Part shown: positions 9,390 to 29,312 of the stretch, one piece after another
How the letters are laid out: the number at the start of each line of letters is the position of its first letter
How positions within the stretch are numbered: the stretch's first letter is position 1
Origin: Moraxella canis
Lineage (GTDB): Bacteria > Pseudomonadota > Gammaproteobacteria > Pseudomonadales > Moraxellaceae
Reading direction: 5' to 3'
DNA: 29,312 bases
Assembly: GCF_002014965.1 (NCBI RefSeq)
Contig: NZ_MUXT01000008.1
Coordinates: 1-29,312 of the forward strand
Program-made: the position numbers and the translations under genes
Notes under the pieces: model-generated
What the model was told of the DNA's origin: nothing
The model's database searches: none
What the model saw: only the letters and a program-made list of their open reading frames with translations

Positions 9390-9687
9390 AGACAGGCTAT
9401 TCCAGTCATGCATTTGCCGATGCTATTGCCAAATGCAATATGACACATAGTACGAGTAAAAAAGCAATTGTTAGGATAATGCACCAACAGAACAATTGTT
9501 TCGAAGTTTTAAAACCGAATGGATGCCAAAATTTGGCTATGATAATAGTCATTAAGCAAAAACAGATTTGGCAGGTTATATCCTTGGCTATTACAGTGAA
9601 ATCAGACCCCACAGCCTTAATAACGACCTAAGCCCTGTCGAAAAAGAACGACAGTTTTTTAACAAAACCCTCTTAGGGGTTGTTTGA
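9390..9687 (+). pseudogene. IS3-family transposase C-terminal remnant
   Basis: The tail of an IS3-type OrfB integrase is readable. ASHAFADAIAKCNMTHSTSK lies in one frame. After a shift near 9460 comes NC*DNAPTEQLFRSFKTEWM, then GYILGYYSEIRPHSLNNDL, ending in TGA at 9685-9687. The motif GNCWDNAPTE, with the catalytic Glu, is recognisable, but its Trp codon is now TAG and a TAA replaces a residue before AKTDLAG. The last 15 bases overlap the 3' end of mcrC on the opposite strand. The upstream part of the IS is absent, so this is a scar rather than an element. Confidence 0.75.
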
Positions 9688-10980
9688 AAATAGGTGATCG
9701 GTACAGTTATCATTCTGGGCAATTACAAGCTTATCTTGCTCCATGCAAAAAGGCACAACCCAAAGCCGCAAATCTTGATCTAACTTAAAGTAGGGCAGTG
9801 ATTGTTCAAAATGAGTATGTTTTGGGTAAATTAGCATCAAATCACCTGAGCCATTTAAATATTTATGCCCATAAGCGAACATCTGGTAAATGTCACTTTG
9901 ACTGATATTGAAGTTGTTTTGGCTATCTAAGCTGTCTAATAGTTTCCATTTAGTGTCCATCACATACCGAGGCTGACTCAAATGACTGACAAGCAAGTCA
10001 GGCTTAAGCTGAAAACGGTTTTTATTGTTGTGTGGATGCTCGGCTATAGCCTCAATCATGTATTCACTAGATGCTTGGGTTTTGAGTGACCAAGGTGACT
10101 TAAACTGACGTTTTAAGCAAACTGCTACATGCTCTTCAAATAGGCGCTCCATAGGGAAAAGCAAAGATATGCCTTGATGCAGACCTTGTTGAAAGTGTGG
10201 ATTCATTTTCTCTAAAATTAGCACACACCAAGGCTTTATTGCCTGATAGCTATGTAAGATTTTACTATCTAACCATTTAGGTATAAGGCTTAATGGGCGG
10301 GCAAGTGGTGTGATTGGTGCAAGAATATGAGACAGCTTATTAGCCAGTCGCCAGTTTTCATGGGTGCGACAGTGAGCTTGTATATAGTCTAAGGCAGTTT
10401 TAATAAGCCGATTTTCGATACGGTTTGGATGATAAATATCGTGATTGATATGAAAAATATGGGCGCGTCCAGTAGGCTGCCGCTGTTGTGCAGTGATATC
10501 TAACTGCCCACGAATGTATCGACTTTCCTCTTCTATCCGTAGGTAATCAAATCTTAAGCCTGACGCAACCAGTTGATTCAAATGAGTGAGAAATTGGTTA
10601 TATATCCACTCATGTATCGGCAAATTCATTCGATTGAGCGTTGCTGAGTGAGCTTCTTTATAAGGCAGATGTAGTGCTGAATAAAGCATCTTACATAATA
10701 CCGCACGGCTATTTTTGGTGTCCTGATGCGTGGAGTGGCTAGTTTTTGGCAACACCTCAATACCTTCACCACTAGGGCTTTGTAAATAGCCCACATACGA
10801 ATGCAATTTGAGACAGTTAGGCTTCTCAAACGTGATAAAACGACCTGAATCTGATTGATCACTTAAACTTACCAGCCAATTGAAGGTATCAGTGCTAATG
10901 ACACCCAAATCAAGACTTGGTGTGGCCGAGGTATCCGTAGTGAGCCGAGCATACTCTCTCACCTGAATGACATGAATCAT
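9673..10980 (-). CDS. mcrC: McrC-type nuclease subunit of a type IV McrBC restriction system
   Basis: The 435-aa protein resembles the McrBC 5-methylcytosine restriction component. The N-terminal half carries the family pattern FEKPNCLKLHSYVGYLQSPSG followed by EVLPKT. The middle has SRYIRGQLDI and HDIYHPNRIENRLIKTAL. The C-terminal PD-(D/E)xK nuclease core shows LFPMERLFEEHV, then KPD with Asp328, then MDTK with Asp342 and Lys344. McrC is the cleaving subunit, recruited and driven by the McrB NTPase. It overlaps mcrB in a TAATG arrangement (stop 10980-10982, start 10978-10980), so the two are translationally coupled. The gene looks intact. Its last bases overlap the IS3 remnant, so the extreme C-terminus may have been altered by that insertion. 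Confidence 0.92.
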   Translation of the reverse strand: MIHVIQVREYARLTTDTSATPSLDLGVISTDTFNWLVSLSDQSDSGRFITFEKPNCLKLHSYVGYLQSPSGEGIEVLPKTSHSTHQDTKNSRAVLCKMLYSALHLPYKEAHSATLNRMNLPIHEWIYNQFLTHLNQLVASGLRFDYLRIEEESRYIRGQLDITAQQRQPTGRAHIFHINHDIYHPNRIENRLIKTALDYIQAHCRTHENWRLANKLSHILAPITPLARPLSLIPKWLDSKILHSYQAIKPWCVLILEKMNPHFQQGLHQGISLLFPMERLFEEHVAVCLKRQFKSPWSLKTQASSEYMIEAIAEHPHNNKNRFQLKPDLLVSHLSQPRYVMDTKWKLLDSLDSQNNFNISQSDIYQMFAYGHKYLNGSGDLMLIYPKHTHFEQSLPYFKLDQDLRLWVVPFCMEQDKLVIAQNDNCTDHLFSNNP

Positions 10981-13322
10981 TAATCAGCCTGTTTATCCAC
11001 ACAGATAATACCTGTGTAAGCCTCGGGCATTGTAAATGCTTCAGTATTAATGTGATAACGTCTATCCATAATCTGATCTGTCACACTACTGTGAAAGAGC
11101 TCAGCCACATCAGGTTGTAAATTACCTACCTGAATAAATCTATGCTCAGGTTTTTTAGCGGGATCATTTAATACCCAACCTATACGCTCCCAATCTGAGA
11201 AAAAGTATTCTTGCAGTAGTGGGATAATGCGATTTTGAAATATATTGGCCAGTTCTGTTTCAAGAGCATTATCTGAACCTAGGTTCTTTAATGACCAAAA
11301 GTAAGCATGACCTATAGCGTGCTCACGGTCTAGCAAGACTTCAATACGCTGATTCATGATTGTCAGCAGTTCAGATAGCTGGATACCAAATATTTCTATA
11401 TCTGACAGGAGGCTAGGATCAGGTAGGGTCTCAATAAATTCAAAGCGTCGACGCAAAGCAAAGTCGATTTGGGCCAAAGACTTATCTGCCGTATTCATTG
11501 TACCCAATACATACAGGTTCGAGGGCACTGAGAACTTCTCTTTAGAGTAGGGCAGAATTACCTCACGTGCATCACGACCACCTTTTCGTTTATCGGGCTC
11601 AAGTAAGGTAATTAACTCGCCAAAGATACGCGATATGTTGCCTCGGTTGATTTCATCAATGATGAGTAGGTGAGGTTTTTCCATGTTGTCTGTATTTGAT
11701 TCTGCATTTAGTAGCTCTTTTAATTTATCTCTATTAATAGTGCCATCTTTAAGGTTGTATAGGGTCATTTGAGATAAAGATTTCTCAAACAACATTTCTT
11801 TGGGAAGGCTGTTATCGTAAATTCTTAACCATTTAACCGGTCTGGACTGTTGGAAACCGGTTCTGACTTGCTTATCCAAGAACTTATAGTCGCCAGTAAC
11901 CTCGGCAATGGCACGAAACTTATGGTTACCATCTGAGATAATGATTAAATCACCTTCTTTTATAATATTTTTAAAGGTATTGACCGCAGTGACAAGGTAG
12001 TTGTAAGGTTCGCCTTTGGCTTCTTCGACTTTGGCAATAATCTTTTGTCGGCTATCACACCCTGTAAAGTCGATATCATCACCCCAGCCTAGCAGAACGT
12101 AATTATTCTCAAGACAGTCGTTATAAATATCTTCACCTTCATGTTCTAAAGTGTTACCTAAAGACATCTTCCATATATTCTTATCCTCAATATCTACAGA
12201 TTGAGTTGAACCAGTTTGTTCTTTGGCATTGGTGCCAGCCAAGGTGCATAAACTTTTAAACACTCCAGGCATGACATCGTAACTAAGACTTGATGTTTCA
12301 TCTGAGTCCTTGTTTACAGAAGGTCTAATACCCTCAACGAAATCTTCATAGGCAAAGCTTTGATGGAAGGTGGTAAATGCGATACGACCTTTACTAACTA
12401 GATCATCATACTTACTTTTAATCTGTTGGCGCTTTTCTGACTCTGGTATAGGGCTTTGTTTCCATGTTTGATACCAGTCAGGCTCCACACACTGTACGGC
12501 AAGTTCAGTAGTTTTGTAGGTTTTCCCTGTGCCGGGTGGACCGTATAGGATGCGGTTTAGAGGTATAAATACTTCTGGCATATCATCAGTTTTGTCAGAG
12601 GTAGCTTTAGTAGAAATCATGGGATTAGATATAATATTGCTTGGCTGGTTGCTTAACCAGGCTTCGTATGAAATCTCATAAAAATTTTTATCTGATATGG
12701 AAGCCACTTGACTAATCATTGTTTGATAGTCATCCCAGTTGCTTCTTTTGACTTCGATACCATGTTGATTTAGCCAGGTTTGAGTTTGGCTATCTATAGG
12801 CAAGTACTCAGATGGATTTGTATAAAATAAGCTTTGGGTAAGTTTAGTAAAGCCAGTGCTTTTGATTTTTAGGGCGTCATTAAAAGTTTTTGGGTTTACT
12901 TGTGATGATCTTGACTGTTTAAATAAAGTCCATAATAAGCAAATTGTGTTTGGATCACGGTCATAGGCATAGGGAAATAGCCATACACTTTGAGGTTGTG
13001 ATGTAGGCACCCCATTGAGATCCTGAATATGAGGTGTATCAAGGCCGGCTATATCAATTAACCGATTCACGCAATCAATTCTTTTTTGAACGCTCTGATA
13101 TTTCATTAATAAAGATAAAAAAGTAAAAGGGTCCATGACCTCGACCTTACTCTTTTCACCTTTAATGAGCTGATCTTGTAGCCCGTTGTCGATACCAACT
13201 TCAATAAGGATATCAACCAAATCTTCCTGCTTGTCTTCAAATCCAGCTAACCAATCAAATATCTTCTCGAAAGCTGGTATCCATGTAAATTCATGCTGTG
13301 GGTTATTCAAAGTAATTTCCAT
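10980..13322 (-). CDS. mcrB: McrB-type AAA+ NTPase with an inserted EVE-like domain
   Basis: This is the motor and specificity subunit partnering McrC. The start is taken at ATG 13322 (MEITLNNPQHEF). An in-frame TTG at 13337 is possible, and neither has a strong ribosome site. Residues 1-235 are a helical N-terminal domain I cannot name. Walker A is GPPGTGKT (261-268). Residues about 384-535 form an inserted domain opening IWKMSLGNTLEHEGEDIYND, with NYVLLGWGDD, LVTAVNTF and GDLIIISDGNHKFRAIAEVTG. This pattern fits an EVE/PUA-like modified-base reader. The AAA+ fold then resumes with Walker B LLIIDEINRGN (from 552), sensor GTMNTAD (607-613) and the arginine cluster RRRF (624-627). In McrB proteins with reader domains the reader is usually N-terminal; here it interrupts the motor. 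The target modification is unknown. Confidence 0.92.
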   Translation of the reverse strand: MEITLNNPQHEFTWIPAFEKIFDWLAGFEDKQEDLVDILIEVGIDNGLQDQLIKGEKSKVEVMDPFTFLSLLMKYQSVQKRIDCVNRLIDIAGLDTPHIQDLNGVPTSQPQSVWLFPYAYDRDPNTICLLWTLFKQSRSSQVNPKTFNDALKIKSTGFTKLTQSLFYTNPSEYLPIDSQTQTWLNQHGIEVKRSNWDDYQTMISQVASISDKNFYEISYEAWLSNQPSNIISNPMISTKATSDKTDDMPEVFIPLNRILYGPPGTGKTYKTTELAVQCVEPDWYQTWKQSPIPESEKRQQIKSKYDDLVSKGRIAFTTFHQSFAYEDFVEGIRPSVNKDSDETSSLSYDVMPGVFKSLCTLAGTNAKEQTGSTQSVDIEDKNIWKMSLGNTLEHEGEDIYNDCLENNYVLLGWGDDIDFTGCDSRQKIIAKVEEAKGEPYNYLVTAVNTFKNIIKEGDLIIISDGNHKFRAIAEVTGDYKFLDKQVRTGFQQSRPVKWLRIYDNSLPKEMLFEKSLSQMTLYNLKDGTINRDKLKELLNAESNTDNMEKPHLLIIDEINRGNISRIFGELITLLEPDKRKGGRDAREVILPYSKEKFSVPSNLYVLGTMNTADKSLAQIDFALRRRFEFIETLPDPSLLSDIEIFGIQLSELLTIMNQRIEVLLDREHAIGHAYFWSLKNLGSDNALETELANIFQNRIIPLLQEYFFSDWERIGWVLNDPAKKPEHRFIQVGNLQPDVAELFHSSVTDQIMDRRYHINTEAFTMPEAYTGIICVDKQAD

Positions 13323-13368
13323 GTCATTAAGATCCAATTCAACAAAGTTTAGCTCTTTTATCGCTTCT

Positions 13369-15400: not shown

Positions 15401-17299
15401 TTAGAACTTTTGCTCGATATCCTTGGCTAGGCTTATTCTTTCGTTTATGTAAGTTGCAAGTGCTCGATCTTCGCAATAGATATAGCAGCCTTTCTGACCA
15501 CGAGACATCAATACCCTATATGTATTTTAATGATTTCATCTGCAATTCTACGGGCCTCATCAGGGTTTTCTTTCATTAAATTCTTTAATCCCTTAATGGA
15601 CTGATCAGTTTTTGCTCGTCTAGTAAAATCAGTTATTACCTTACCATCTTCATACCTTAGATCATTACCAATAATAACCCCTACATAGTCCAACTCTAAA
15701 CCTTGGCAAGTATGAATGCATCCGACTTGATTTATTGATCCTATGTCAATCATATAAGTTTTCGTATTGCCAAGATTCCAACTTTTTTGGAAGCCATGCT
15801 CTTTAATTACAATATCATGGTGATTTGGATTATTTCTATTATTGTCTTGATTGCTCCACTCCCAACAATAACCTGCTAGTAACCTAGCCTTGTTGTTAAC
15901 ATTTTTTTTCTACAATTAAGTCAAATAGCTTATTTGGATCGTCTACAACCCGTAAGTCATAATCAATATCAAAGCCTTCGCTATTGGCCGTCTCTTCAAT
16001 TTGTAGTACATCATCAAGAAATGCCATATAACCATCTGAGCCATTACATCTAAACTGTGATGTCAGCTTTAATTCTTGTACATCTGCATCTGCTTGATGG
16101 GCAAAATATTCAATATCGCTAATGCTACCTGCATCCTTGAAGTGAACTCTTTGACGTTCATCGATAAAAAATACGGATAACTTAGATGCATTAATCAATT
16201 CTTTAGTTTGATTTTCTCCCAAATGACTAAATATACCTGACTTTTCGTTTAGTCTATGAGCTTCATCTACTAAAACAACATCAAGCTCATTTGTAAGCAT
16301 TTCATGGTATATTCCTGAACTTTTAAACAGGTTGTCTACACTGTTTCTTTTCATATGTCCTTTGAGCTTTGCTGCATAAACCTCTCTGGGTGCGGTATTT
16401 TTAGTAACATAATGACAAAGCATACCTTTACTAGTTAGGGCAACTAACAGCTGTACAGCTAAGACGCTTTTGCCTGTGCCAGGACCCCCTTTAACTATTA
16501 ATACTTTTTTCCTGCCAGTATCTTGGGCTTTTTTTGCTAAATGGACTGCCTGCTCATAAACAACCTTTTACTCGTCAATCATGGTAAATTCTTCGTTGCC
16601 TTCAAGCATTTTAACCAATGACTCTTGCAAAGATTTCGATGGTCTTATCTTTCCATTTTCAATCAAATAAAGGGTTTCTTTATTATCACCATACTTAATA
16701 TTTCTTTTTATAAAATTGCGTAACAACTCTGTGTCAGCTCGACCAAAAACAGGAGCTTGATCCAGATACTCTTGATAGAGAGTATCAGTCAGAGGATCAT
16801 AATCCCGGTTAATTACATAGTTATGCAAATAGGCACATGGGTGTAAGGTAACTTGCTTTGTTGATACAACTTCATTGAAATCGTTAATTAAACTTGCATA
16901 AGAAGCTACTTGATATGAAGGGTGTGTGGTCTCTCGAATGCCGCCTCCTAGGAAAGTTTCTACGATACCATCTTTGTAATCAACCTTACTGACAGCATCC
17001 CACTGCTTAAGTTCAACTATAACAACTGATTTAGAAACATCATTCCGCCCAGAGATGATGAAATCAATTCTCTTGGAACTCGTTGGAATTTTATACTCAA
17101 TCGCAATGCCTGAGTTATCTGGAATGTTATCATCATTCATAACCATATACATTTTCTGTAAAGAGTTATCCCATGAGAGTATCTCGCTTTTGCCAGTACG
17201 ACCTATCTTTTCTTTAAAATTAGTATAAATCTTATCAATCAGGACGCCATCAGAAACATCTTTCATAAAACCATTTTTTGTATTATCGTATATGATCAT
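15401..17299 (-). pseudogene. DUF2075-type protein: PD-(D/E)xK nuclease plus AAA ATPase, broken
   Basis: The start is ATG 17299 with AAAGGA six bases upstream. The N-terminal part looks like a restriction-type nuclease: Glu40, Asp79 (RIDFIISG), and Glu96-Leu-Lys98 (VIVELKQWD). The frame meets TAA at 16568-16570 (codon 244), then continues in phase with KVVYEQAVHLA and Walker A KGGPGTGKS. It then shows VVLVDEAHRLNEK (Walker B) and LTSQFRCNGSDGYM. A run of eight T's at 15902-15909 causes a frameshift; one base fewer restores NVNNKARLLAGYCWEW. The next part has QVGCIHTCQGLELDYVGV. A second shift near 15525 leads to NTYRVLMSRGQKGCYIYC and the stop at 15401-15403. The family occurs in bacterial defence and helicase-like systems. 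The content is nearly complete, so inactivation is recent. The stop is one change from CAA. Confidence 0.8.
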
Positions 17300-17703
17300 A
17301 AATATTCCTTTGCTATTAAAAGTTAAATGATGTTTTACCAAATAGCATCTAAATCACCAAACCATTTTTTAATATTCTAAGTTGATGAAATAGCAAACCG
17401 CATCTGAAAAACGTACACTTTTTTAATAAGAGGTGGGCGAAATCCTTATCAGTGGCCTGGTATGTTCATAATATACATTGATCTAGTGATCGGAGATTCT
17501 CAATAATATTGGCATGGTTGATCTAAATTTTTTCTAAAAAGTAATGAAATTAAGATCATTATAGCTTAGGTAAATATCTGTGTAAATAATGCTACCATGC
17601 TTAATTTACTTATGATGATAAATATTAATGTCAGTGTGTTGGTGAATGATCTGTTAAAATCTCAAGCGTTATTGACGCTTTGGTTAAAATAAAGCTTCAG
17701 CCA
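17300..17703. other. Intergenic region upstream of the DUF2075 relic
   Basis: AT-rich; it would contain the promoter of the minus-strand DUF2075 gene near 17300-17400. I see no convincing -35/-10 pair, no gene and no repeat. Confidence 0.4.
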
Positions 17704-18056: not shown

Positions 18057-18406
18057 CTAAAAATCACTTGAGAAATTTTAACTACTTGCAATCTCATAAA
18101 AGCAAATGTACGCACTTTCTTGAGAAATAACGGCATGATTTAATTGATGAAAGTGGCTAAATCGCATGATTAATGCTGTGATGCTAATCGGTTAGGGGTT
18201 AGAAGACTTAATCGAAGGTGATCGTACAATTTTTAGTTTCACTCTTAAGATTCTGATTTAAATCCAAGTTCTTTGATTGGATTTGGGTTGAGTAAAAACT
18301 TAAGAATTGGCGACTTGATTTATTTATTTTCTATTCTTATAAATTATATGGATTTATATTATTCTTTGATTACTTTGGCTTAAAATACAATACGGATGGG
18401 ATAGTG
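18057..18406. other. Region upstream of cas3
   Basis: No gene was seen. It contains a hairpin, AAATCCAA (18260-18267) and TTGGATTT (18277-18284), flanked by CTTAAG at 18244-18249 and about 18299-18304. It should hold the cas3 promoter, but no confident -35/-10 pair was found. Just before the start there is GGATGGG (18394-18400), a possible ribosome site. Confidence 0.4.
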
Positions 18407-20905
18407 ATGAGGGTATTTGTAGCGCATGTGCGTACTGGTCATAATGGTGTTTTTCAAACTCATGACCTGAAACAGCATCTACAAAAAGTCGCCAATCTTG
18501 CCGCTCAATTTGCTGGTGATAGAGGGGGTGCCTTCGCTTATTATGCGGGTTTGCTTCATGATTTAGGCAAGTATCAGGCAGCTTTTCAGGATTACATTGA
18601 AAGAGCCAGCGGCTTTAACAAAGAAAACGCGCATTTAGAAAATCTAGAGGAAAGACAAGGAGATAAGGTCCCACACTCTACCGCAGGCGCTAAGTATGCG
18701 ATCAATCAATTAGACCCAGTAATTGGGCATTTATTGGCGTATTTGATTGCTGGACATCATGCAGGTTTGGCAGATTGGCATGATAAAGGAAGTTTAAAAA
18801 GCCGGTTGCAAAAAGCGGACAAAGAGCTACAAAGTGCCTTGTCGGGCGTTAAGCAAGACGAATTTTTTGGTCAATTACAAAAGCTGTCGGACGATGATTT
18901 GGCATCAGATTTTGAGTTATTTTTTGCAAATAACAACAATATTGCTGCCGAGATACATATTTGGATTCGGTTTTTGTTTTCTTGTTTGGTGGACGCTGAC
19001 TTCTTGGATACCGAAGCGTTTATGTGTGGCTATGCAGATGTTGATGAGGCAAAAAGGGCAGGCGTGCGCCCAACTTTTGCAAGTTTAGATGAGTTACATC
19101 GGCGTTATGAACACCATATGGCACAATTGGCACTAAAAGCAAAAGATTCTGCGTTAAATCAGGAGCGTAATGCGATTTTAAGGCAATGTTTTCAAGCGGC
19201 TCAATGGGACGAATCATTGTTTAGTCTGACGGTACCAACTGGTGGCGGTAAAACTTTGGCAAGCTTGGGATTTGCCTTAAAACACGCCCTAAAATTTAAT
19301 AAAAAACGTATCATTTACACCATACCATTTACCAGCATCATTGAGCAAAATACCGATGTGTTTTGTAAGGTCTTAGGTGATGAAAACGTGGTAGAGCACC
19401 ACAGTAATTTGCAGGTAGATGAAAAAAAACAAACCGCACGCAGTCGATTAGCCGCTCAAAATTGGGATGCACCGCTGATTGTTACCACCAATGTGCAATT
19501 TTTTGAAAGCCTGTTCGCTGCTAAGACCAGCCGTTGTCGTAAAATTCATAATATTGCCGACAGTGTGGTGATTTTAGATGAGGCACAACAGCTGCCCCGA
19601 AATTTTCAAAAGCCGATAACCGATATGATGCGCGTGTTGGCACGTGATTATGGAGTAAGGTTTGTGTTGTGCACCGCCACACAACCTGAGTTGGGTAAAG
19701 ACGTGGATGCGTTTGGACGGACTTTGCTTGAAGGGTTGCCAAAGGTGCATGAAATTATCACAGATAAATTTGCACTTGCCAAAAAACTCCGTCGTGTCAA
19801 CATAAAACTCCCCTTAAAAGATACGCCAAAACAAAGCTGGCAAGAGATTGCCGATGAAATCGCTCAGCGTCAGTGTGTTTTGGTGATTGTTAATACTCGT
19901 AAGCACGCCCGTAAATTGTTTGCTGCTTTGCCTGATGATGGAATTAAACTGCATTTGTCCGCCAATATGTGCGCCGCTCATCGTGCCGAAGTGATTGCCT
20001 TGATTCGCCGTTACTTGCAGTTTTACCGCAATGGCAAACTCAGCCAACCACTTTGGGTGGTCAGCACCCAATTGATTGAAGCAGGCGTGGATTTGGATTT
20101 TCCTGTGGTCTATCGTGCGGTGGCGGGTTTAGATAGCATCGCACAAGCGGCAGGGCGTTGTAACCGTGAAGGTAAATTGCCCACATTGGGCGAAGTGGTG
20201 GTGTTTCGCACCGAAGAAGGTGCACCCAGTGGCAGCTTAAAACAAGGTCAACAGATTACCGAAGAGTTGATACAAGCTGATAAATTGTCTGACCCGCTAT
20301 CGCCTGTGGCAATGGATGAGTATTTTAAACGTTTCAATCATAAAGGCGATCGGGATAAATATAAAATCACTCAGGATTTAACTTTACAATCGAGTGCTGA
20401 AAACCCTGTGGACATTAAATTTCGCACCGCTGCTGACAAGTTTCGCTTGATAGATAACCAAGGCGTTGCCCTAATCGTGCCTTTTGTGCCCTTGGTTTGG
20501 CAACAAGAAGCAAAAGAGCCAAAAATGGTGGCGACAACGCAATTAGATGAGTTTTATGAACAATGCTTAGCCAATGTGCCGCCTGAATTATGGCAAAGCA
20601 AATTAGATGAATACCGCCACCCTAGCCCGCAAGACGAACATTATGGACAAACAGACACCCCGCCTTTGCCCGAGCCGTTTGAGAGCTGGTTTGGTTATTT
20701 ACAAAGCGACCCACTCAAACACAAATGGGTGTATCGCAAGCTGCAACGCCACACCATTAGCGTTTATGAATATGAGCTTGCAAAACTGCCAGCTCAGGCA
20801 GTATTTGAGCGAGCGGGACTTTTGGTGTTGGATAAAGGGTATTATGATGATGTCTTAGGTGGTTGCTTTGATGATGCGTTGTGGATACAAGACCAAGTGA
20901 TTTAA
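18407..20905 (+). CDS. cas3: Cas3, HD nuclease-helicase of a type I-C CRISPR system
   Basis: This is the effector that Cascade recruits to nick, unwind and degrade target DNA 3' to 5'. Residue numbers count from GTG 18404; ATG 18407 is the preferred start. The HD domain has His25, His52-Asp53 (GLLHDLGKYQ), HSTAGAKYAI and the HH of LIAGHHAGLADW. The superfamily 2 helicase domain has Walker A PTGGGKT, IPFTSIIEQN, motif II LDEAQQ (DEAQ rather than DEAH), motif III CTATQPEL, and motifs V-VI LIEAGVDLDFP and QAAGRCNREG. The length of about 832 aa is normal for I-C. It is the first gene of the locus but is followed by a terminator and a 194-bp gap before cas5c, so its expression can be independent. 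All motifs look intact. Confidence 0.96.
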   Translation: MRVFVAHVRTGHNGVFQTHDLKQHLQKVANLAAQFAGDRGGAFAYYAGLLHDLGKYQAAFQDYIERASGFNKENAHLENLEERQGDKVPHSTAGAKYAINQLDPVIGHLLAYLIAGHHAGLADWHDKGSLKSRLQKADKELQSALSGVKQDEFFGQLQKLSDDDLASDFELFFANNNNIAAEIHIWIRFLFSCLVDADFLDTEAFMCGYADVDEAKRAGVRPTFASLDELHRRYEHHMAQLALKAKDSALNQERNAILRQCFQAAQWDESLFSLTVPTGGGKTLASLGFALKHALKFNKKRIIYTIPFTSIIEQNTDVFCKVLGDENVVEHHSNLQVDEKKQTARSRLAAQNWDAPLIVTTNVQFFESLFAAKTSRCRKIHNIADSVVILDEAQQLPRNFQKPITDMMRVLARDYGVRFVLCTATQPELGKDVDAFGRTLLEGLPKVHEIITDKFALAKKLRRVNIKLPLKDTPKQSWQEIADEIAQRQCVLVIVNTRKHARKLFAALPDDGIKLHLSANMCAAHRAEVIALIRRYLQFYRNGKLSQPLWVVSTQLIEAGVDLDFPVVYRAVAGLDSIAQAAGRCNREGKLPTLGEVVVFRTEEGAPSGSLKQGQQITEELIQADKLSDPLSPVAMDEYFKRFNHKGDRDKYKITQDLTLQSSAENPVDIKFRTAADKFRLIDNQGVALIVPFVPLVWQQEAKEPKMVATTQLDEFYEQCLANVPPELWQSKLDEYRHPSPQDEHYGQTDTPPLPEPFESWFGYLQSDPLKHKWVYRKLQRHTISVYEYELAKLPAQAVFERAGLLVLDKGYYDDVLGGCFDDALWIQDQVI

Positions 20906-21099: not shown

Positions 21100-21744
21100 A
21101 TGAGTTTTATCTTAGAAATCAGTGGAGAGTATGCCTGTTTTACCAGACCAGAGCTCAAAGTGGAGCGTGTCAGCTATCCCGTCATCACGCCGTCTGCCGC
21201 AAGGAATATCCTGATGGCGATACTATGGAAACCGGCTATTCGTTGGCAGGTGAAAAAGATTGAGATATTAAAGCCGATTCAGTGGGTTAATATCCGTCGC
21301 AATGAAGTTGGCAATAAAATGAGTGAACGCAGTCAAGCACTATATATAGAAGAAAATCGCCAACAGCGTGCATCAATGTTGCTGCGTGATGTGGCATACC
21401 GCATTCATGCCGATTTTGTGATGACTAACGAAGCAGGCGAAGATGATAACCGCAATAAATTTGTAGAAATGTTCAAACGCCGAGCAACAAAAGGACAATA
21501 TTTCCACCAGCCTTATTTGGGTTGCCGTGAATTCCCGTGCAACTTCACATTATTGGAAAAAGCGGAAGACGGCTTGCCGCGTGAAAATATCACGCAAGAT
21601 TTTGGCTTGATGCTCTACGACATGGATTACAGCAAATCCGCCCCGCGTGATTCCAATCATGCCGAGCCGATGTTTTACCATTGCAAAGCTGAGCACGGTG
21701 TGATTATTGTACCGCCAATGGACAGCGACGAGGTGAAACGATGA
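21100..21744 (+). CDS. cas5c: Cas5c (Cas5d), crRNA-processing Cascade subunit
   Basis: In type I-C systems, which lack Cas6, this protein cuts the pre-crRNA at the base of the repeat hairpin, keeps the 5' handle and caps Cascade. The 214-aa sequence has the Cas5 RRM-like opening FILEISGEYACFTRPELKVE, the family pattern SYPVITPSAARNILMAILW, and FHQPYLGCREFPCNF. AAGGA lies seven bases before the ATG. Its stop overlaps the cas8c start (ATGA at 21741-21744), so they are coupled. No Cas6-like gene was seen in the window, which fits this role. The length is typical and nothing is broken. Confidence 0.95.
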   Translation: MSFILEISGEYACFTRPELKVERVSYPVITPSAARNILMAILWKPAIRWQVKKIEILKPIQWVNIRRNEVGNKMSERSQALYIEENRQQRASMLLRDVAYRIHADFVMTNEAGEDDNRNKFVEMFKRRATKGQYFHQPYLGCREFPCNFTLLEKAEDGLPRENITQDFGLMLYDMDYSKSAPRDSNHAEPMFYHCKAEHGVIIVPPMDSDEVKR

Positions 21745-23474
21745 TTCTGCACGCATTAACGCAATATTATCAACGTAAAGCCCTTTCAGAAGGCGGCGTA
21801 GCTCCGGAGGGTTTTGAGCAAAAACAAATCCCATTTGTGATTGTGCTTGATGAGTACGGACGTTTTATTCAACTAGAAGATACCCGAGAATTGCAAGGCA
21901 AAAAGAAAGTTGGGCGTTCTTTTTTGGTGCCCAAGGGCTTAGGAAGAAGTGGAAAAAATTCATACGAAGTCAGCAATATTCTTTGGGATCACTATGGCTA
22001 TGTGCTGGCTTATGCCAGTGATAAAACCCAAGAAATGGCAGATAAACAGCATGCCAGTTTTATTGCTAAGGTGGATGAATTAAAAAAAGCCTTGCCTGAT
22101 GACATGGGGATTCGTGCCGTATCCAACTTCTTGGCTTTGTCTGATGAAAAAGCCAAGGTCATGCAACATGAAAATTGGGAAGAGTGCATTAAAATCAAAG
22201 GCTGTAATTTGAGTTTTCGCTTAGTGGGCGAAGCTGCCGCATTGGTCTGCCAGTCCCAAGCTTTACAAAATTATTTGGCACAAAGCAAAGAAGCTGTTTT
22301 GGAAGACATATCGCAAGGCATTTGTTTGGTAAAAGGTGAAAAAGCTCCGATAGCACGCTTGCACAATGCAATAAAAGGCGTGAACGCCAAGCCGTCGCCA
22401 TTTACTTCGGTTAATTTGGCTGCCTTTGAATCTTATGGCAAAAAACAAGGTTCTATCTTCCCCGTGGGTGAACAGGCGATGTTTGAATACACCACCGCAC
22501 TTAATGTGCTGCTTGCTGGTGAGAACCGCTTTCGCATCGGTGATGTTACCGCCGTCTGTTGGAGTGAAAAACCCACGCCTTTGGAGAGTCGGTTTGCCAT
22601 GATGATAAACGGCAGTAAAGACAATCCTGACGCTCATATTGATGAAATCAAATCGCTTTATCAGAGCCTGCACAACGGAAAATACACCGAGCCAAACGCC
22701 AAAGATAAATTTTATCTTTTGGGTTTGTCGCCCAATTCAGCACGGATTGTGGTGCGGTTTTGGCACGAAACCACCGTTGCACAGTTGTCAGAAAATCTCG
22801 CCAAATGGTATGACGATTTAAAAATGGTGCGTGGAGAAAAATCGCCGTATCCAGAATTTATGCCACTGACACGTCTGTTGGGTAATCTGGTCTTGGAGGG
22901 TAAGACAGAAAATCTGCCACCGGATTTGGTTGCACAAGTTACCCAATGTGTTTTGAGCAATCGTCCGTTACCGATGAATTTGTTGCAAATGGCTTTACGT
23001 CGCAACAAGGCCGAGCAAAAAGTCACTTATGGACGGGCATCATTGATTAAGGCTTATTTGAACCGTGCTGTCCGAGCGGGCAGTTTGAAAAATATCAAGG
23101 AGATATCTATGAGTTTGGATAAAACGCGAGAAGATACTGGCTATCTTTTAGGGCGACTGTTTGCTGTTTTGGAAAAAATCCAAAGCGAAGCCAATCCTGG
23201 CTTAAATGCCACCATTGGCGACCGTTATTTTGGTGCAGCAGGCAGTACGCCAATTGCTGTGTTTGGTACATTGCTGCGTTTGTCTAAACACCATTTAAGT
23301 AAATTGCCCATTGGCAGAAGAACCAATTTAGAAAAGCTACAACAGGAAATTATTGCCAAAATTAATGCTTTTCCAAGTCATCTTAATATCAATCAACAGG
23401 GCTTATTTGCCATTGGATATTACCACCAGAAGCAAGACTTTTATCAATCCACCAAAACCGAACAGGAGCAATAA
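21741..23474 (+). CDS. cas8c: Cas8c, large subunit of type I-C Cascade
   Basis: The 577-aa Cas8c (Csd1) recognises the PAM, opens target DNA and supports Cas3 recruitment. It opens [20 protein letters not shown], with the family features [30 protein letters not shown] and [15 protein letters not shown] [11 protein letters not shown]. The region around [17 protein letters not shown] and [18 protein letters not shown] is strongly typical. The C-terminal approximately 121 residues are helical and can also be made alone as Cas11c from an internal start (see 23109-23474). It overlaps cas5c by 4 nt and ends one base before cas7c begins. Intact and of normal length. Confidence 0.95.
23109..23474 (+). 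CDS. cas11c: Cas11c small subunit, internal translation product of cas8c
   Basis: Inside cas8c and in its frame, AAGGAG (23097-23102) lies six bases before ATG 23109 (codon 457). This is a near-ideal ribosome site in the middle of a gene. The product would be 121 aa, opening [20 protein letters not shown], mostly helical and ending with the Cas8c C-terminus. In type I-C systems the small subunit is known to arise this way and to line the Cascade belly at several copies per complex. Position, size and Shine-Dalgarno all fit. Expression itself is inferred. Confidence 0.85.
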
Positions 23475-23475
23475 A

Positions 23476-24327
23476 ATGACCATTGAAAAACGCTATGATT
23501 TCGTATTTTTGTTTGACGTGCAAGACGGCAACCCCAACGGCGACCCTGATGCAGGCAATCTGCCACGCATCGACCCCGAAACCGGCATAGGCTTGGTGAC
23601 TGATGTCTGTTTGAAGCGCAAAGTACGCAACTTTGTCCAAATGACCCAAAGTCCAGAGCAGCACGACATATTTATTCGAGAAAAAGGAATTTTAAATCAA
23701 CTGATTGACGAAGCTCATGAGCAAGACAGTGTTAAGCATAAGGAAAAAGGGGAAAAAACCGAAGCCGCCCGCCAGTATATGTGCAAGCGTTATTATGACA
23801 TTCGCACTTTTGGGGCGGTACTGACCACCGGTAAAAATGCCGGTCAGGTGCGTGGTCCTGTGCAGCTGACTTTTGCGCGTTCTATTGAACCAATCATCAC
23901 CCTTGAACACAGCATCACTCGTATGGCTGTAACCAACGAAAAAGATGCCAGTGAAACTGGGGATAACCGCACTATGGGACGCAAATTCACCGTACCTTAT
24001 GGCTTATACCGTTGCCACGGCTTTGTTTCTGCTCACTTTGCTAAGCAAACTGGTTTTTCAGAAGAAGACTTAGAGCTGTTCTGGCAAGCTCTCATAAATA
24101 TGTTTGACCATGACCATTCAGCAGCTCGTGGACAAATGAACGCCCGTGGTCTGTATGTATTTGAACACAGCAACAGCTTGGGCGATGCCCCTGCTGACAG
24201 CCTGTTCAAGCGTATTCAGGTTACCAAAAAAGAAGGCGTGGACGTTACACGCAGTTTTGATGACTATGTCGTAACTGTCAATGAGCAAGATTTGGCTGCC
24301 ACCAAACTGTATCGCAAACTTGGCTAA
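23476..24327 (+). CDS. cas7c: Cas7c, backbone subunit of type I-C Cascade
   Basis: This subunit polymerises along the crRNA to form the Cascade filament. The start is ATG 23476, not the upstream in-frame candidate at 23353, because AGGAG (23463-23467) precedes it. The protein then opens [20 protein letters not shown] followed by [17 protein letters not shown], the family signature. Further typical blocks are [42 protein letters not shown] and [13 protein letters not shown], then [13 protein letters not shown]. The length of 283 aa is normal. It starts one base after the cas8c stop and ends 2 bp before cas4. Confidence 0.95.
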
Positions 24328-24329
24328 AT

Positions 24330-24938
24330 ATGCAATATGTCCCACTCTCCGCCCTGCAACATTACGCCTTTTGTCCGCGTCAGTGTGCCTTGATTCACAA
24401 CGAACAAGCTTGGGCGGAGAACTATTTGACCGCCCAAGGCCGTGCTTTGCATGAGTGTGTGGACGGCGGCGAGCCGGAGACGCGCAAGGGCGTGCGCTTT
24501 GAGCGCAGCGTGCATGTGTCGGCGGAGAATTTGGGTGTGCACGGCGTGCTGGATATGGTCGAGCGTGATTTAAATACAGGCAACCTAAAACCTGTGGAAT
24601 ACAAACGTGGCAAACCTAAGCCCGAACCATTCGACGAAATCCAGCTCTGCGCCCAAGCCTTGTGTTTGGAAGAAATGACCGGGCAAACGGTGGCAGAGGG
24701 TGCACTGTGGTATGGGCAAACCCGCCACCGTGTGCCGGTGGTGTTTTCAAACGGTCTTAGGGCGCAAACGCTGGCCGTGATTGGGCAGGTACGAGAACTT
24801 TTGGAAAGCGGCATCACCCCGCCGCCTGAATACGGCAAACGTTGTAAAGCCTGTTCGCTTGTGGAGATTTGTCAGCCGAAGTTGATGGAGAAAGATAGGT
24901 CGGTGGGGTATGTGGCGGGGTTGTTTGGGGAAGAATAA
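24330..24938 (+). CDS. cas4: Cas4, iron-sulfur RecB-like nuclease for spacer adaptation
   Basis: Cas4 trims prespacers and helps choose PAM and orientation with Cas1-Cas2. Visible features in the 202 aa are the N-terminal FCPRQCAL with Cys15, His41, Asp75 (GVLD), Glu90-Tyr-Lys92 (VEYKRG), Gln106 in QLCAQAL, and the C-terminal cluster Cys172, Cys175, Cys181 (RCKACSLVEIC). Together with Cys15 this forms the 4Fe-4S site. It starts 2 bp after cas7c with no clear ribosome site of its own, so it is probably coupled. Its composition is visibly GC-richer than the flanking chromosome. In most I-C loci cas1 follows immediately; here an extra gene intervenes. Confidence 0.95.
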   Translation: MQYVPLSALQHYAFCPRQCALIHNEQAWAENYLTAQGRALHECVDGGEPETRKGVRFERSVHVSAENLGVHGVLDMVERDLNTGNLKPVEYKRGKPKPEPFDEIQLCAQALCLEEMTGQTVAEGALWYGQTRHRVPVVFSNGLRAQTLAVIGQVRELLESGITPPPEYGKRCKACSLVEICQPKLMEKDRSVGYVAGLFGEE

Positions 24939-24975
24939 AAAATTTTACGTAATATGAGTTTATATGGGTGGAACT

Positions 24976-25533
24976 ATGAAAATAATGAGTTATGTTATTA
25001 CACATGATTATGGATTTGCTCCCAATCCCTATGGTGGAATGTTGACGCTTGCAACCTGCAAACCTGTTATCCGAAATAATGCTAAATTGGGAGATATTCT
25101 TGTTGCAACTGGCTCTACAAAAGGAGCGTATGGAAATAAATTGATTTACGTAGGAAAAATTTCTGAAATAATAACTATGGATGAGTATTTTGAAGATTTG
25201 AAATTTGAATATAAGAAACCAAAGGGTACAAGTGGTGAAGGTTGTAGAGGAGACAATATTTATTATAAAAATAATAATAAATGGTTCCAGTTGGAAAATA
25301 GATTTCATGATGAGGGCAACATGGAACATGATTTGAAATCAAAAAATGTCTTAATATGTGAAGAGTTTTGGTACTTTGGCAATAAAGCGCTAGAAATTCC
25401 TGATAGATTTTTGGGAATTGTTAAAAATGGACCAGGTCATAAAAATACAAGTAGTAAAGATATGATTTCTAGTTTTTTAGATTGGATTAATAATTATGAA
25501 CGAGGTCGGATTGGAAGACCTAGCAGTTTGTAG
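24976..25533 (+). CDS. Nmad2-like protein inserted between cas4 and cas1
   Basis: The 185-aa protein opens MKIMSYVITHDYGFAPNPYG, then GMLTLATCKPVIRNNAKLGD and GNKLIYVGKISEIITMDEYF. Further on are CRGDNIYYKNNNKWFQ and LICEEFWYFGNKALEIPD. From memory this is the pattern of the nucleotide-modification-associated domain 2 (Nmad2) family, whose neighbours often handle modified bases; its biochemistry is not settled. ATG 24976 is chosen because GGTGG lies just upstream and family members start at this point; ATG 24964 is possible. The gene is strikingly AT-rich against GC-rich cas4 and cas1, which suggests later insertion. It lies on the same strand as the operon, 37 bp after cas4 and 69 bp before cas1, so it should be co-transcribed. 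No membrane segment or signal peptide. It is not a standard type I-C component. Confidence 0.8.
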   Translation: MKIMSYVITHDYGFAPNPYGGMLTLATCKPVIRNNAKLGDILVATGSTKGAYGNKLIYVGKISEIITMDEYFEDLKFEYKKPKGTSGEGCRGDNIYYKNNNKWFQLENRFHDEGNMEHDLKSKNVLICEEFWYFGNKALEIPDRFLGIVKNGPGHKNTSSKDMISSFLDWINNYERGRIGRPSSL

Positions 25534-25602
25534 GTAGATTGAATTTATGGGTAATTACTGAATTCAAAATCTGAGACAAAATTAAAGGAGAATTTTCCAA
25601 CC

Positions 25603-26613
25603 ATGCGCAAACTGCAAAACACGCTCTACATTACCACGCAAGGCAGTTATCTGCATAAGGAGCGGGAAACGCTGGTGGTGGAGCAGGGGCGTAAGAAGGT
25701 GGCGCAGTTGCCAGTGCATGCGATCGGGCATATTTTTTGTTTTGGCAATGTGCTGGTGTCACCTTTTTTGATGGGGTTTTGCGGTGAAAACAATGTGAAT
25801 CTGGCGTTTTTTACCGAAAACGGGCGGTTCTTGGGGCGTTTGCAGGGTCGGCAGAGTGGCAATGTGCTCTTGCGGCGGGCGCAGTATCGGCTGTCGGAGC
25901 AAAATCCCGTGCCAATTGCGCGGCATATCATTGCAGCGAAGATTCAGGCAAGTAAGCGGGTATTGCAACGACATTTACGCAATCATGGTGAGCAGGCACA
26001 AATAAAAGCAGCTGTTGTCTCATTGAATGCCAGTTTAAAGCAGCTGCAACACGCCAGCAGTTTGGAGGTTATCCGTGGTATAGAAGGTGAGGCAGCGGCC
26101 CGTTATTTTGAGGTGTTTGGGCGGTTGTTGCGAAGTGATGATTTTGTGTTTACAGTGCGTAACCGCAGACCACCCAAGGATGCCGTCAATGCATTGCTGT
26201 CTTTTTTGTATGCGGTGCTGGGCAAGGACATCAGTGGGGCGTTGCAGGGCGTGGGCTTGGATCCACAGGTGGGTTTTTTGCATGCCGACCGGCCGGGGCG
26301 CGACAGTTTGGCGCAGGATATTTTGGAAGAGTTCCGCGCGTGGTGGGTGGACAGGTTGGTGCTTTCCCTGATTAACCGCGGGCAAATCAAGCCTCAGGAT
26401 TTTGTGCATGAGGCCAGCGGCGCGGTGAATATCAAACCTGAGGCGCGCAAACTGGTTTTTCAGGCTCTTCAGGCGAAAAAGCAGGAGAAGATTAGGCATC
26501 CTTTTTTGCAGGAGGAGGTGGAAATCGGTCTGCTGCCATATATTCAGGCGATGCTGTTGGCAAGACATTTACGGGGTGATTTAACTCATTATCCGCCGTT
26601 TTTGATGCGATGA
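25603..26613 (+). CDS. cas1: Cas1, spacer integrase
   Basis: The catalytic subunit of the Cas1-Cas2 integrase. The 336-aa protein has the N-terminal beta domain (MRKLQNTLYITTQGSYLHKE) and the helical catalytic domain. Metal ligands are Glu161 in GIEGEAAARYF, His227 in VGFLHADRPG and Asp239 in SLAQDILEEFR. GGAG lies about 12 bases before the ATG, a little far. The composition is GC-rich like cas4. The length is typical and all active-site residues are present. It is separated from its usual neighbour cas4 by the Nmad2-like gene. Confidence 0.96.
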   Translation: MRKLQNTLYITTQGSYLHKERETLVVEQGRKKVAQLPVHAIGHIFCFGNVLVSPFLMGFCGENNVNLAFFTENGRFLGRLQGRQSGNVLLRRAQYRLSEQNPVPIARHIIAAKIQASKRVLQRHLRNHGEQAQIKAAVVSLNASLKQLQHASSLEVIRGIEGEAAARYFEVFGRLLRSDDFVFTVRNRRPPKDAVNALLSFLYAVLGKDISGALQGVGLDPQVGFLHADRPGRDSLAQDILEEFRAWWVDRLVLSLINRGQIKPQDFVHEASGAVNIKPEARKLVFQALQAKKQEKIRHPFLQEEVEIGLLPYIQAMLLARHLRGDLTHYPPFLMR

Positions 26614-26678: not shown

Positions 26679-26972
26679 GTGTTGATGTTGATTACGTATG
26701 ATATTTCACTAGAAGATGTGGCAGGGCGGGCAAGACTTAGGCAAATCGCCAAACATTGTCTGGATTATGGTGTGCGTGTGCAATATTCGGTGTTTGAGTG
26801 TGACATTACGCCTGATCAGTGGGTGAAACTAAAAACCAAATTACTTGACACTTATCACCCAAAGACTGACAGTTTACGGTTTTATCATTTGGGCAGTAAA
26901 TGGCGGCACAAGGTGGAGCACCATGGGGCTAAACAAGCCTTAGATGTGTTTGCAGATACATTAATTGTGTGA
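26679..26972 (+). CDS. cas2: Cas2, structural partner of Cas1
   Basis: Cas2 dimerises and bridges two Cas1 dimers for spacer integration. The start is set at GTG 26679, with AAGGAG (26666-26671) seven bases upstream. The product is 97 aa, opening (M)LMLITYDISLEDVAGRARLR, the normal I-C length and sequence. The upstream in-frame start at 26640 would add 13 non-conserved residues. RVQYSVFECDI and YHLGSKWRHKVEHHG are typical. It is the last cas gene and runs into the leader without a terminator. Confidence 0.93.
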   Translation: MLMLITYDISLEDVAGRARLRQIAKHCLDYGVRVQYSVFECDITPDQWVKLKTKLLDTYHPKTDSLRFYHLGSKWRHKVEHHGAKQALDVFADTLIV

Positions 26973-27158: not shown

Positions 27159-29312
27159 GTCGCTCCCTTCGCGGGAGCGTGTGTTGAAACACCGTTTTTC
27201 TCCATTTCTTTTAGGGTTTCCATGTCGCTCCCTTCGCGGGAGCGTGTGTTGAAACAGCGGTCAGATGGCGGAAGGTATCAAAACGCTGACGTCGCTCCCT
27301 TCGCGGGAGCGTGTGTTGAAACTCAAGAAAAGCACAGTGATTTATCAATCGGTCATGGTCGCTCCCTTCGCGGGAGCGTGTGTTGAAACGTCGTAATCCA
27401 AGTCAGTGATTGAATGCCAGATGGTCGCTCCCTTCGCGGGAGCGTGTGTTGAAACGCTGTGGTCAATGGCTCAAAAACTGGCGAATACAAGTCGCTCCCT
27501 TCGCGGGAGCGTGTGTTGAAACAGGATTTGAAAAAAGCCATTTGGTATATCCAAGATGTCGCTCCCTTCGCGGGAGCGTGTGTTGAAACATTATACCAAA
27601 GTCTAATTTTGTGAGCAATGCTTGTCGCTCCCTTCGCGGGAGCGTGTGTTGAAACAAGGCGTACTACGACAATCAAGCCACACTTGGTAAAGTCGCTCCC
27701 TTCGCGGGAGCGTGTGTTGAAACAATGCGTGGTGTGATGAGCTGATCGAGGCGGTGAAGTCGCTCCCTTCGCGGGAGCGTGTGTTGAAACGTATTGATAC
27801 GAGAAAATGGGTGCTTGCTCGCATGTCGCTCCCTTCGCGGGAGCGTGTGTTGAAACTTGGGCAAGCAAGACAAGCATTTTTGATGATGCTGGTCGCTCCC
27901 TTCGCGGGAGCGTGTGTTGAAACTCAAAAAATAAAACTTGAGTCTATTATATGCCATGTCGCTCCCTTCGCGGGAGCGTGTGTTGAAACATTGATTTTAT
28001 TGACTTTTTGGGGGTTCATGCCGTGTCGCTCCCTTCGCGGGAGCGTGTGTTGAAACCGCCGTCCATTTGGGGGGTCTGCGCTACCTACACGTCGCTCCCT
28101 TCGCGGGAGCGTGTGTTGAAACAAGACGGCATGGACGGCATGGACGGCATGAACCCCGTCGCTCCCTTCGCGGGAGCGTGTGTTGAAACTAGCGTTGGAT
28201 AAACTGTTAGTGTACGCCCCCCAGTCGCTCCCTTCGCGGGAGCGTGTGTTGAAACAGGATAACCATAACAATAAACATACTCGCTGTAGGTCGCTCCCTT
28301 CGCGGGAGCGTGTGTTGAAACATTGGCTAGATGAGAACGCCGATGAGCGTTATTAAGTCGCTCCCTTCGCGGGAGCGTGTGTTGAAACATTTTGATAAAA
28401 GTTTATAAGTTATTGATTTAATGTCGCTCCCTTCGCGGGAGCGTGTGTTGAAACAGGACACTTAAGGCAGTAACTATTGTTTCGGGATTGTCGCTCCCTT
28501 CGCGGGAGCGTGTGTTGAAACCACTCGCCCGTCAAAACTCGTGCCATTTGCCACATGTCGCTCCCTTCGCGGGAGCGTGTGTTGAAACGTATCGCCTGAG
28601 CCTGCGTTAAATATCCAACCGAGGTCGCTCCCTTCGCGGGAGCGTGTGTTGAAACACTGTACCTTATTACGATGTCAACGCTGACTATGGTCGCTCCCTT
28701 CGCGGGAGCGTGTGTTGAAACTGCGTAGCTAATGCTTGATACTCTTGACGCGCTAAAGTCGCTCCCTTCGCGGGAGCGTGTGTTGAAACACATTTGGCGG
28801 TGTGTCTGTAATCTGTACTTGATAGTCGCTCCCTTCGCGGGAGCGTGTGTTGAAACTGCTGAACCAAGTATTAAGTTACGACCGCCGACTGTCGCTCCCT
28901 TCGCGGGAGCGTGTGTTGAAACCGTCAAGATTAGGGCAAAGATGAAGTTACCAAAGCGTCGCTCCCTTCGCGGGAGCGTGTGTTGAAACATGAAATCTGG
29001 GCATCATGCTATCACCACGCACCGTGTCGCTCCCTTCGCGGGAGCGTGTGTTGAAACGGATTTTGGGCGACGAAAAGCACCAAAAGCTGGCGTCGCTCCC
29101 TTCGCGGGAGCGTGTGTTGAAACATGAAATCTGGGCATCATGCTATCACCACGCACCGTGTCGCTCCCTTCGCGGGAGCGTGTGTTGAAACCGTCAAGAT
29201 TAGGGCAAAGATGAAGTTACCAAAGCGTCGCTCCCTTCGCGGGAGCGTGTGTTGAAACACAAAGCTCAGCAAATGTCAGCTTACCCTCACTGGGTCGCTC
29301 CCTTCGCGGGAG
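27159..29312 (+). CRISPR. Type I-C CRISPR array, 32 full repeats plus one cut by the window end
   Basis: The 32-nt repeat begins GTCGCTCCC, has the stem CGCTCCC/GGGAGCG with loop TTCGC, and ends GTGTTGAAAC. This is the type I-C form, in which Cas5c cuts below the stem. Repeats start at 27159, 27224, 27291, 27358, 27424, 27491, 27558, 27624, 27692, 27759, 27825, 27892, 27958, 28025, 28091, 28158, 28224, 28290, 28357, 28423, 28490, 28557, 28624, 28690, 28758, 28825, 28891, 28958, 29026, 29092, 29160, 29227 and 29294 (partial). All full copies read the same. The 32 spacers are 33-36 nt. The leader-proximal (newest) end is at 27159. Spacers 27 and 31 are identical, as are 28 and 30. The array continues outside the window. 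Confidence 0.98.

Follow-up and report, generated by a model that had tools for sequence, protein, structure and literature searches.

A probable cassette slot between cas4 and cas1 of type I-C CRISPR operons, occupied by an Nmad2 gene in Moraxella canis

The junction between cas4 and cas1 in the type I-C CRISPR–Cas operon of Moraxella canis is occupied by an Nmad2 gene, and the same junction in related operons of Neisseriaceae and Moraxellaceae holds other whole genes, many of them belonging to known antiviral systems. We consider it very probable that the junction is a slot like the minimal mobile elements (MMEs) of Neisseria, for AT-rich cassettes exchanged by transformation and homologous recombination, and that Nmad2 is one of these cassettes, the one carried by the present Moraxella strain. 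The conserved cas4 and cas1 genes would serve as homology arms, between which foreign cassettes, many antiviral, would be swapped after natural transformation without any part for an integrase. The interest of the finding lies in a slot within a CRISPR operon rather than in a gene shown to tune CRISPR.

An Nmad2 gene inside a complete type I-C operon

The window, by which we mean the whole 29,312-nt stretch of DNA analysed, carries the following features of the operon:

18404..20905, plus strand: cas3 (TIGR01587, TIGR01596)
21100..21744, plus strand: cas5c (TIGR01876, 3.1e-54)
21741..23474, plus strand: cas8c (TIGR01863, 2.9e-156)
23476..24327, plus strand: cas7c (TIGR02589, 1.5e-116)
24330..24938, plus strand: cas4, left flank of the slot (PF01930, TIGR00372)
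24939..25602, no strand: cas4–cas1 slot, 664 bp from cas4 stop to cas1 start, with other cargo in sister loci
24976..25533, plus strand: Nmad2 gene, the cassette in the slot (185 aa; PF18753, 1.4e-55; pLDDT 94; GC 0.319)
25603..26613, plus strand: cas1c, right flank of the slot (TIGR03640, 1.7e-149)
26679..26972, plus strand: cas2 (PF09827, TIGR01573)
27159..29312, plus strand: CRISPR array after cas2, near or within which the window ends

All on the plus strand, the order is cas3–cas5c–cas8c–cas7c–cas4–Nmad2–cas1c–cas2–array, that of a type I-C operon apart from Nmad2, and the NCBIfam I-C models of Cas5c, Cas8c, Cas7c and Cas1c are matched above cut-off. The GTG start of cas2 was picked by likeness to relatives, its frame being open from 26640, and the 32-nt CRISPR repeat occurs in 32 exact copies inside the window. 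Nmad2 starts 37 bp past the end of cas4 and is followed after 69 bp by cas1; an alternative in-frame ATG at 24964 would lengthen it to 189 aa. The match of its product to the Pfam Nmad2 profile, PF18753, spans residues 2–183 of 185 and scores 188.3 bits against a cut-off of 26.1 (E 1.4e-55). Invariant residues of the protein include D11, N17, C28, R33, D93 and W132. A first-pass annotation, made from the letters alone, had named the gene Nmad2 and seen that it separates cas4 from cas1 in a complete type I-C operon; the Pfam and NCBIfam matches bear out both.

The same annotation had taken the gene, AT-rich against GC-rich neighbours, for a later arrival that left both neighbours intact, and this view is supported. 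The GC content of nmad2 is 0.319 (0.231 at third positions), or 32%, against 0.553 (55%) in cas4 and 0.521 (52%) in cas1; cas7, cas3, cas8 and the whole window stand at 0.468, 0.443, 0.432 and 0.417. The locus looks like three layers: the effector genes are near host composition, cas4 and cas1 are richer in GC, and the insert is AT-rich. Between positions 24300 and 25700 we found no terminator-like sites and no excess of promoter-like sites over shuffled sequences.

Nucleotide identity of the window cas4 to the four Neisseriaceae loci compared is 77–86%. For Cas1c, amino-acid identity to relatives reaches 89%, and the named relatives at 81–89% include many Pasteurellaceae, among them Actinobacillus, Mannheimia and Glaesserella. 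We rejected a plasmid origin of cas1 because its relatives in the plasmid collection at E 1e-100 all fall below 60% identity. A phage origin of Nmad2 was rejected as well, the window protein having no match in 50,697 phage records.

Elsewhere in the window, the glutathione S-transferase encoded at 6604–7170 has its best named relative in Moraxella canis (96%), in keeping with a Moraxella host. On the minus strand, positions 9673–13337 hold what appears by eye to be a McrBC-like pair, the McrB-like protein of which seems to have an EVE-like insert. Also on the minus strand, at 15508–17341, a 175-aa ORF has a match to PF09848, the Schlafen group 3 helicase domain; the ORFs beside it may represent other fragments of one broken gene.

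Occupancy of the junction in related operons

A cas1c bait run over 83 Neisseriaceae genomes gave 26 above the cut-off; after removal of two orphan cas1–cas2 loci (L122, L129) and addition of two genomes with a split, sub-cut-off cas1 (G053, G068), 26 type I-C loci were compared, with lower-scoring or partial cas1 matches, such as those in G016, G022, G026, G028, G045 and G049, outside the count. With one genome per species and gaps measured between alignment ends, the cas4–cas1 gap was 595–2708 bp in 23 of the 26 loci; in the three unoccupied ones (L135, L141 and L142, the last at a contig end) it was 75, 2 and 7 bp. Conserved flanks with differing whole-gene cassettes between them, the hallmark of an MME, are thus found across genomes.

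In Moraxellaceae, cas1c was above the cut-off in 20 of 348 genomes, and all 20 loci were read. Four have a cas1 that is 75–84% identical to that of the window, and three of these are occupied: L258 and L259 by AriA/OLD-like ATPases and L260 by a CBASS cyclase (4e-200) with a 2TM effector, L261 being empty. In the other 16, of Acinetobacter type, cas1 is 39–45% identical and no operon-strand ORF of at least 60 aa lies between cas4 and cas1, although 7 of the 16 have 252–329 bp there without a gene. The total for loci of the window's kind, window included, is 27 occupied slots out of 31.

Among Bacillota, where we read the 30 best loci of 70 genomes above the cut-off, the junction is tight, with a gap of at least 150 bp in none. 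The first-pass statement that type I-C loci normally have nothing between cas4 and cas1 holds for these Bacillota loci and fails in the clade of the window operon. Gaps of at least 150 bp occur in 3 of 22 loci of the order outside Neisseriaceae and in 8 of 29 of the class (29 loci of 31 genomes above the cut-off outside G001); by eye, seven of the eight class inserts look like toxin–antitoxin pairs or BRO-N proteins, and the remaining one has no operon-strand ORF.

Cargo of the slot

Ten of the 27 occupied slots match PADLOC models, and the systems are varied: DarTG (L119, as DarT–DarG), AbiP2 (the reverse transcriptase of L130), Shedu (L139), two CBASS (among them the cyclase and 2TM effector of L136), two type II restriction–modification (RM) systems and three OLD/AriA-like proteins, including a truncated OLD/GajA-like frame in L132. 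The RM slots pair an Eco57I-like methylase with a BsuBI/PstI endonuclease (L117) and a D12 methylase with an AlwI endonuclease (L128); these and DarT–DarG were identified by Pfam and PADLOC. L140 is assigned by the 74% identity of its protein to that of L130. Three slots hold HNH or PIN proteins (HNH_5 in L116, a protein 82% identical to it and without PADLOC match in L138, and PIN_12 in L120), and three hold Nmad2.

The label 'defence' may not cover all cassettes, since ten of the 27 could not be assigned to a family with confidence: L118 and L121, which share one protein, L123, L127, L131, L133, L134, L137, L124 and L126. The last two contain ORFs of 54–58 aa only; for L131 the PADLOC matches were weak (LmuB, 3.3e-8), and we treated it as unclassified. 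The family-less proteins of L118/L121, L123, L127, L131, L134 and L137, which measure 263, 219 and 226, 313, 482, 585 and 290 aa, are candidate new defence genes. No integrase or transposase was matched among the slot proteins scanned, which were all but those of L121, L124, L126 and L140, the 106-aa ORF of L127 and the 276-aa ORF of L133.

Because the main ORF shares the strand of the operon in each of the 25 slots that have an ORF of at least 100 aa, the cargo is probably co-transcribed with cas4–cas1–cas2. The slot of L123 has a second gene, on the opposite strand.

Other junctions and a possible joint defence

The remaining junctions of the operons differ in how much they admit. The cas5–cas8 junction measures −4 bp in 25 of 25 loci, window included, and cas8–cas7 ranges from −122 to 31 bp in the same 25. 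Between cas1 and cas2 there are 3–127 bp and no gene, the exceptions being L142, at its contig end, and L135, with 276 bp and a cas1 that itself contains a stop. Cargo is present between cas3 and cas5 in 5 of 21 loci, as SIR2-HerA (L123), GmrSD (L128), Gabija, with GajA and a UvrD helicase (L139), an MBL-fold candidate (L120) and an OLD-like ATPase (L138). At cas7–cas4, 5 of 26 loci have a gap of more than 300 bp, and three of these (L123, L127, L133) have a same-strand ORF; the cargo there is NYN-OST-HTH together with two proteins that are EVE-like by eye. Since cas3–cas5 and cas7–cas4 also carry cargo, cas4–cas1 is the main site and not the sole one. In these loci, insertions lie between modules, and none falls inside cas5–cas8–cas7 or at cas1–cas2.

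Such a concentration of immune genes could mean that the joint operon is itself selected, with cassettes kept as a complement to CRISPR, whether as a second layer or as a fail-safe. All 17 labelled slot cassettes are defence genes, nucleases or Nmad2, and the five cas3–cas5 cargoes include SIR2-HerA, Gabija and GmrSD, as this reading would expect. Against it, restriction genes are ordinary cargo of neisserial MMEs, some of which carry them according to PMC8627216, which means that joint function is not needed to produce the pattern. A precedent for a protective module tied to a CRISPR locus is CreTA, toxin–antitoxin RNA pairs linked to cas operons; the slot cassettes differ in being protein-coding and in varying between genomes. 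No CreTA-like degenerate repeat clearly stood out in the slots tested, so the known CreTA fail-safe wiring is not seen. In the window slot the best match was 15 of 32, where shuffles reach 17, and among 21 slots with a usable repeat the best match beat 20 shuffles only in L128 (19 versus 18) and L140 (19 versus 17), an excess too small to claim such wiring; this search covered slots other than L001, L124 (where the repeat is masked as N), L133, L136, L137 and L138. We regard selection for joint defence as a tentative possibility.

Signs of cassette exchange

Exchange of cassettes between the cas4 and cas1 arms is suggested by comparisons of four kinds.

First, closely related operons differ in their slots. 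L260 and L261 are 95–99% identical in nucleotides across all seven cas genes, and one has CBASS where the other has 6 bp. L136 and L137 (cas8 95%, cas1 97%) carry CBASS and the 290-aa family-less protein, L117 and L120 (cas8 96%) RM and PIN, L123 and L139 (cas8 92%) family-less cargo and Shedu, and L001 and L124 (cas8 93%) Nmad2 and small ORFs. Homology between L260 and L261 is lost over the final 55 bp of the L260 cas4 and begins again at the seventh base of cas1; in L260 the end of cas4 and the sequence leading up to cas1 resemble those of slot-bearing loci, and in L261 they do not. It is as if the cas4 tail, the slot and the first bases of cas1 had been brought in together.

Second, the adaptation genes and the effectors have been shuffled. 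L001 is 90–91% identical to L123 and L131 in cas4 and 94% identical to them in cas1, and their effectors share short matches at most. The trees of cas1 and cas7 conflict: L123, L131 and L139 group with L001 and L124–L126 in the cas1 tree and not in the cas7 tree, and L119 does so in the cas7 tree and not in the cas1 tree, each tree leaving 11 of its 25 inner branches open and many forks being weakly supported. The cas1 tree holds 28 of 30 loci (the split L140 and L141 were lost by length) and the cas7 tree 29 of 30 (L116 lacks a full cas7).

Third, slot and flanks differ in composition. GC content is 0.313 in the slot against 0.521 in the cas genes, and it is lower in the slot in 23 of 23 occupied Neisseriaceae loci.

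Fourth, so does the distribution of five 10-mers that we take to be neisserial DNA uptake sequences. In the 23 occupied Neisseriaceae loci, where uptake sequences shared by descent are not independent, the 30.8 kb of slot interior contain one and the 152 kb of cas genes 178, or 1.17 per kb, and ten lie in the 100 bp immediately preceding cas1 (2.3 kb in total); a reversed-motif control gave 0, 2 and 0. At least one is present in cas4 in all 23 loci. The window has none of these motifs, which are neisserial and may not be those of Moraxella.

By eye, many loci of the two families resemble one another over the roughly 35 bp before cas1. A core that is presumably the Haemophilus DNA uptake signal lies 29–33 bp before cas1 in 8 of 30 loci from Neisseriaceae and Moraxellaceae hosts (L116, L124, L128, L132, L137, L140, L258 and L260). 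Its placement may point to exchange with Pasteurellaceae, or it may be shared by descent. A screen of 80 and 80 genomes of the class for a member of that family, by this motif, gave 0 and 0.

An alternative is that single genes entered the slots by site-specific or transposon-borne insertion, homologous exchange of the flanks playing no role. Landing outside cas loci is possible for Nmad2, as a lone broken copy in Alysiella shows, and some loci outside the clade carry the toxin–antitoxin-like pairs noted by eye at cas4–cas1. On the other side stand the lack of an integrase or transposase match among the scanned slot proteins, the change of the cas4 tail along with the slot in L260 and L261, and the borders of the window slot, where no repeats lie: its one 14-nt direct pair and one 12-nt inverted pair are both away from gene borders, on which ground a transposon origin was rejected. 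We judge insertion of this kind very unlikely, and favour homologous exchange between cas4 and cas1, for which natural transformation would be the route.

Nmad2 outside and inside cas loci

A scan of genome contigs with a 37-sequence alignment gave 433 Nmad2 relatives, of which the best 80 were kept. Window Cas queries detected cas genes within flanks of up to 10 kb of only 2 of these best 80. One is L001, from Neisseria sp. HMSC077D05, where cas4, Nmad2, cas1 and cas2 are 80%, 64%, 84% and 82% identical to those of the window, and the effectors cas3, cas5, cas8 and cas7 just 23–32%. In the other, the Desulfofustis locus L078, cas1, cas2, Nmad2 and Nmad3 are consecutive; this forms a separate link of Nmad2 with adaptation genes, and two Cas2-like small ORFs lie at L078:8144-11465, one matching the window Cas2 and the other recognised by eye. 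Nmad2 occurs in 3 of 83 Neisseriaceae genomes, G001 (L001), G048 (L085, L125) and Alysiella crassa, and the copies of G001 and G048 occupy the cas slot. The gene at cas4–cas1 is thus not confined to the present strain, recurring in two other genomes. In Alysiella crassa (L011:10001-10580), a lone frame-broken Nmad2 sits between nuoL-like and nuoM-like genes.

The commoner neighbour is a ThsB-like TIR gene, directly upstream of Nmad2 in 52 of the best 80 of the 433 relatives. An example of such a pair is L012:9502-9990 (TIR) with L012:10001-10576 (Nmad2), and the pairs are often near a 5-hmdU DNA kinase, MazG_C or a larger TIR protein. These neighbourhoods form an uncharacterised Thoeris-like cluster. 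Their Nmad2 belongs to the same PF18753 family as the window protein; the window, L001 and L125 differ from them in having cas4 upstream and no TIR neighbour in the slot.

These distributions bear on the idea, favoured by the first-pass annotation, that Nmad2 helps Cas1–Cas2–Cas4 or Cascade. As an accessory of adaptation it would read modified bases in captured DNA and tune prespacer choice by Cas4–Cas1–Cas2. The arrangement cas4–Nmad2–cas1–cas2, found beside unrelated effectors in three genomes from two families, the predicted fold discussed below and the position of Nmad2 downstream of cas1 and cas2 in Desulfofustis are in its favour. Yet in sister loci whose cas1 and cas4 are nearly identical the place is taken by CBASS, Shedu or restriction enzymes, or is empty, and because near-identical cas loci hold such unrelated cassettes we rejected the helper as the main reading. 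The rarity of cas genes near Nmad2, the prevalence of a TIR gene upstream of it and the broken Alysiella copy away from cas genes also speak against an accessory, and at cas4–cas1 the gene accompanies two unrelated effector lineages, that of the window and that of L001 and L125. We hold the accessory role to be highly improbable. The rival idea that the annotation had offered, an independent cargo gene, gains support from the unrelated defence modules that sister loci hold at this junction.

What Nmad2 does is the weakest step of the cassette explanation. Its AlphaFold2 (AF2) model (pLDDT 94) suggests a PUA-like fold resembling the YTH, EVE and ASCH readers of modified bases, so the protein may read modified bases; sequence identity to PUA-like readers (YTH, EVE, ASCH and the McrB N-terminal domain) is 3–10% (VIA list). 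Solved structures gave no sequence match, and none of the families in PADLOC-DB 2.0.0 matched the window protein. The 'modified-base' part of the first-pass idea may hold on account of this modelled fold, which does not itself link Nmad2 to CRISPR. Nmad2 could conceivably be a stand-alone antiviral protein that recognises a modified nucleotide, a suggestion, like any assignment of function here, that we make with considerable doubt.

Discussion

An MME, as defined in PMC3082526 and PMC8627216, is a conserved gene pair with varied whole-gene cassettes exchanged by homologous recombination. The cas4–cas1 slot is alike in having two conserved genes with differing whole-gene cassettes between them, and different in that its flanks are cas4 and cas1 within a CRISPR operon and that Moraxellaceae have the site too. 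The meningococcal CRISPR–Cas locus is itself on an MME, as reported in PMC13431127; there the nesting is the reverse, a whole CRISPR–Cas locus lying on the element. We found no earlier description of the cas4–cas1 slot, or of cassettes inside a cas operon, in the open-licence literature, and one may exist elsewhere.

A broader reading sees the type I-C adaptation operon as a travelling platform on which a single promoter drives both CRISPR memory and a second, exchangeable defence, and explains the 27 filled slots among 31 loci by selection for the pairing. The cassette would act upon failure of CRISPR, or would give DNA ends and alarm signals that feed Cas4–Cas1–Cas2, and the platform would range over naturally transformable Neisseriaceae, Moraxella and perhaps Pasteurellaceae. 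We rate this reading as unlikely.

Defence genes usually cluster side by side in islands. The MME-like slot would instead make one immune operon a docking site for others, mainly at one junction and in two bacterial families. If so, reading the cas4–cas1 junction across strains would be a cheap way of finding antiviral genes, with 10 of 27 occupied slots still family-less, and the orphan Nmad2 would be given an antiviral role that can be tested. Two further questions would come within reach of testing: whether there is a reason for the co-expression of CRISPR with a second defence, and how immunity is spread by transformation among species that share a niche.
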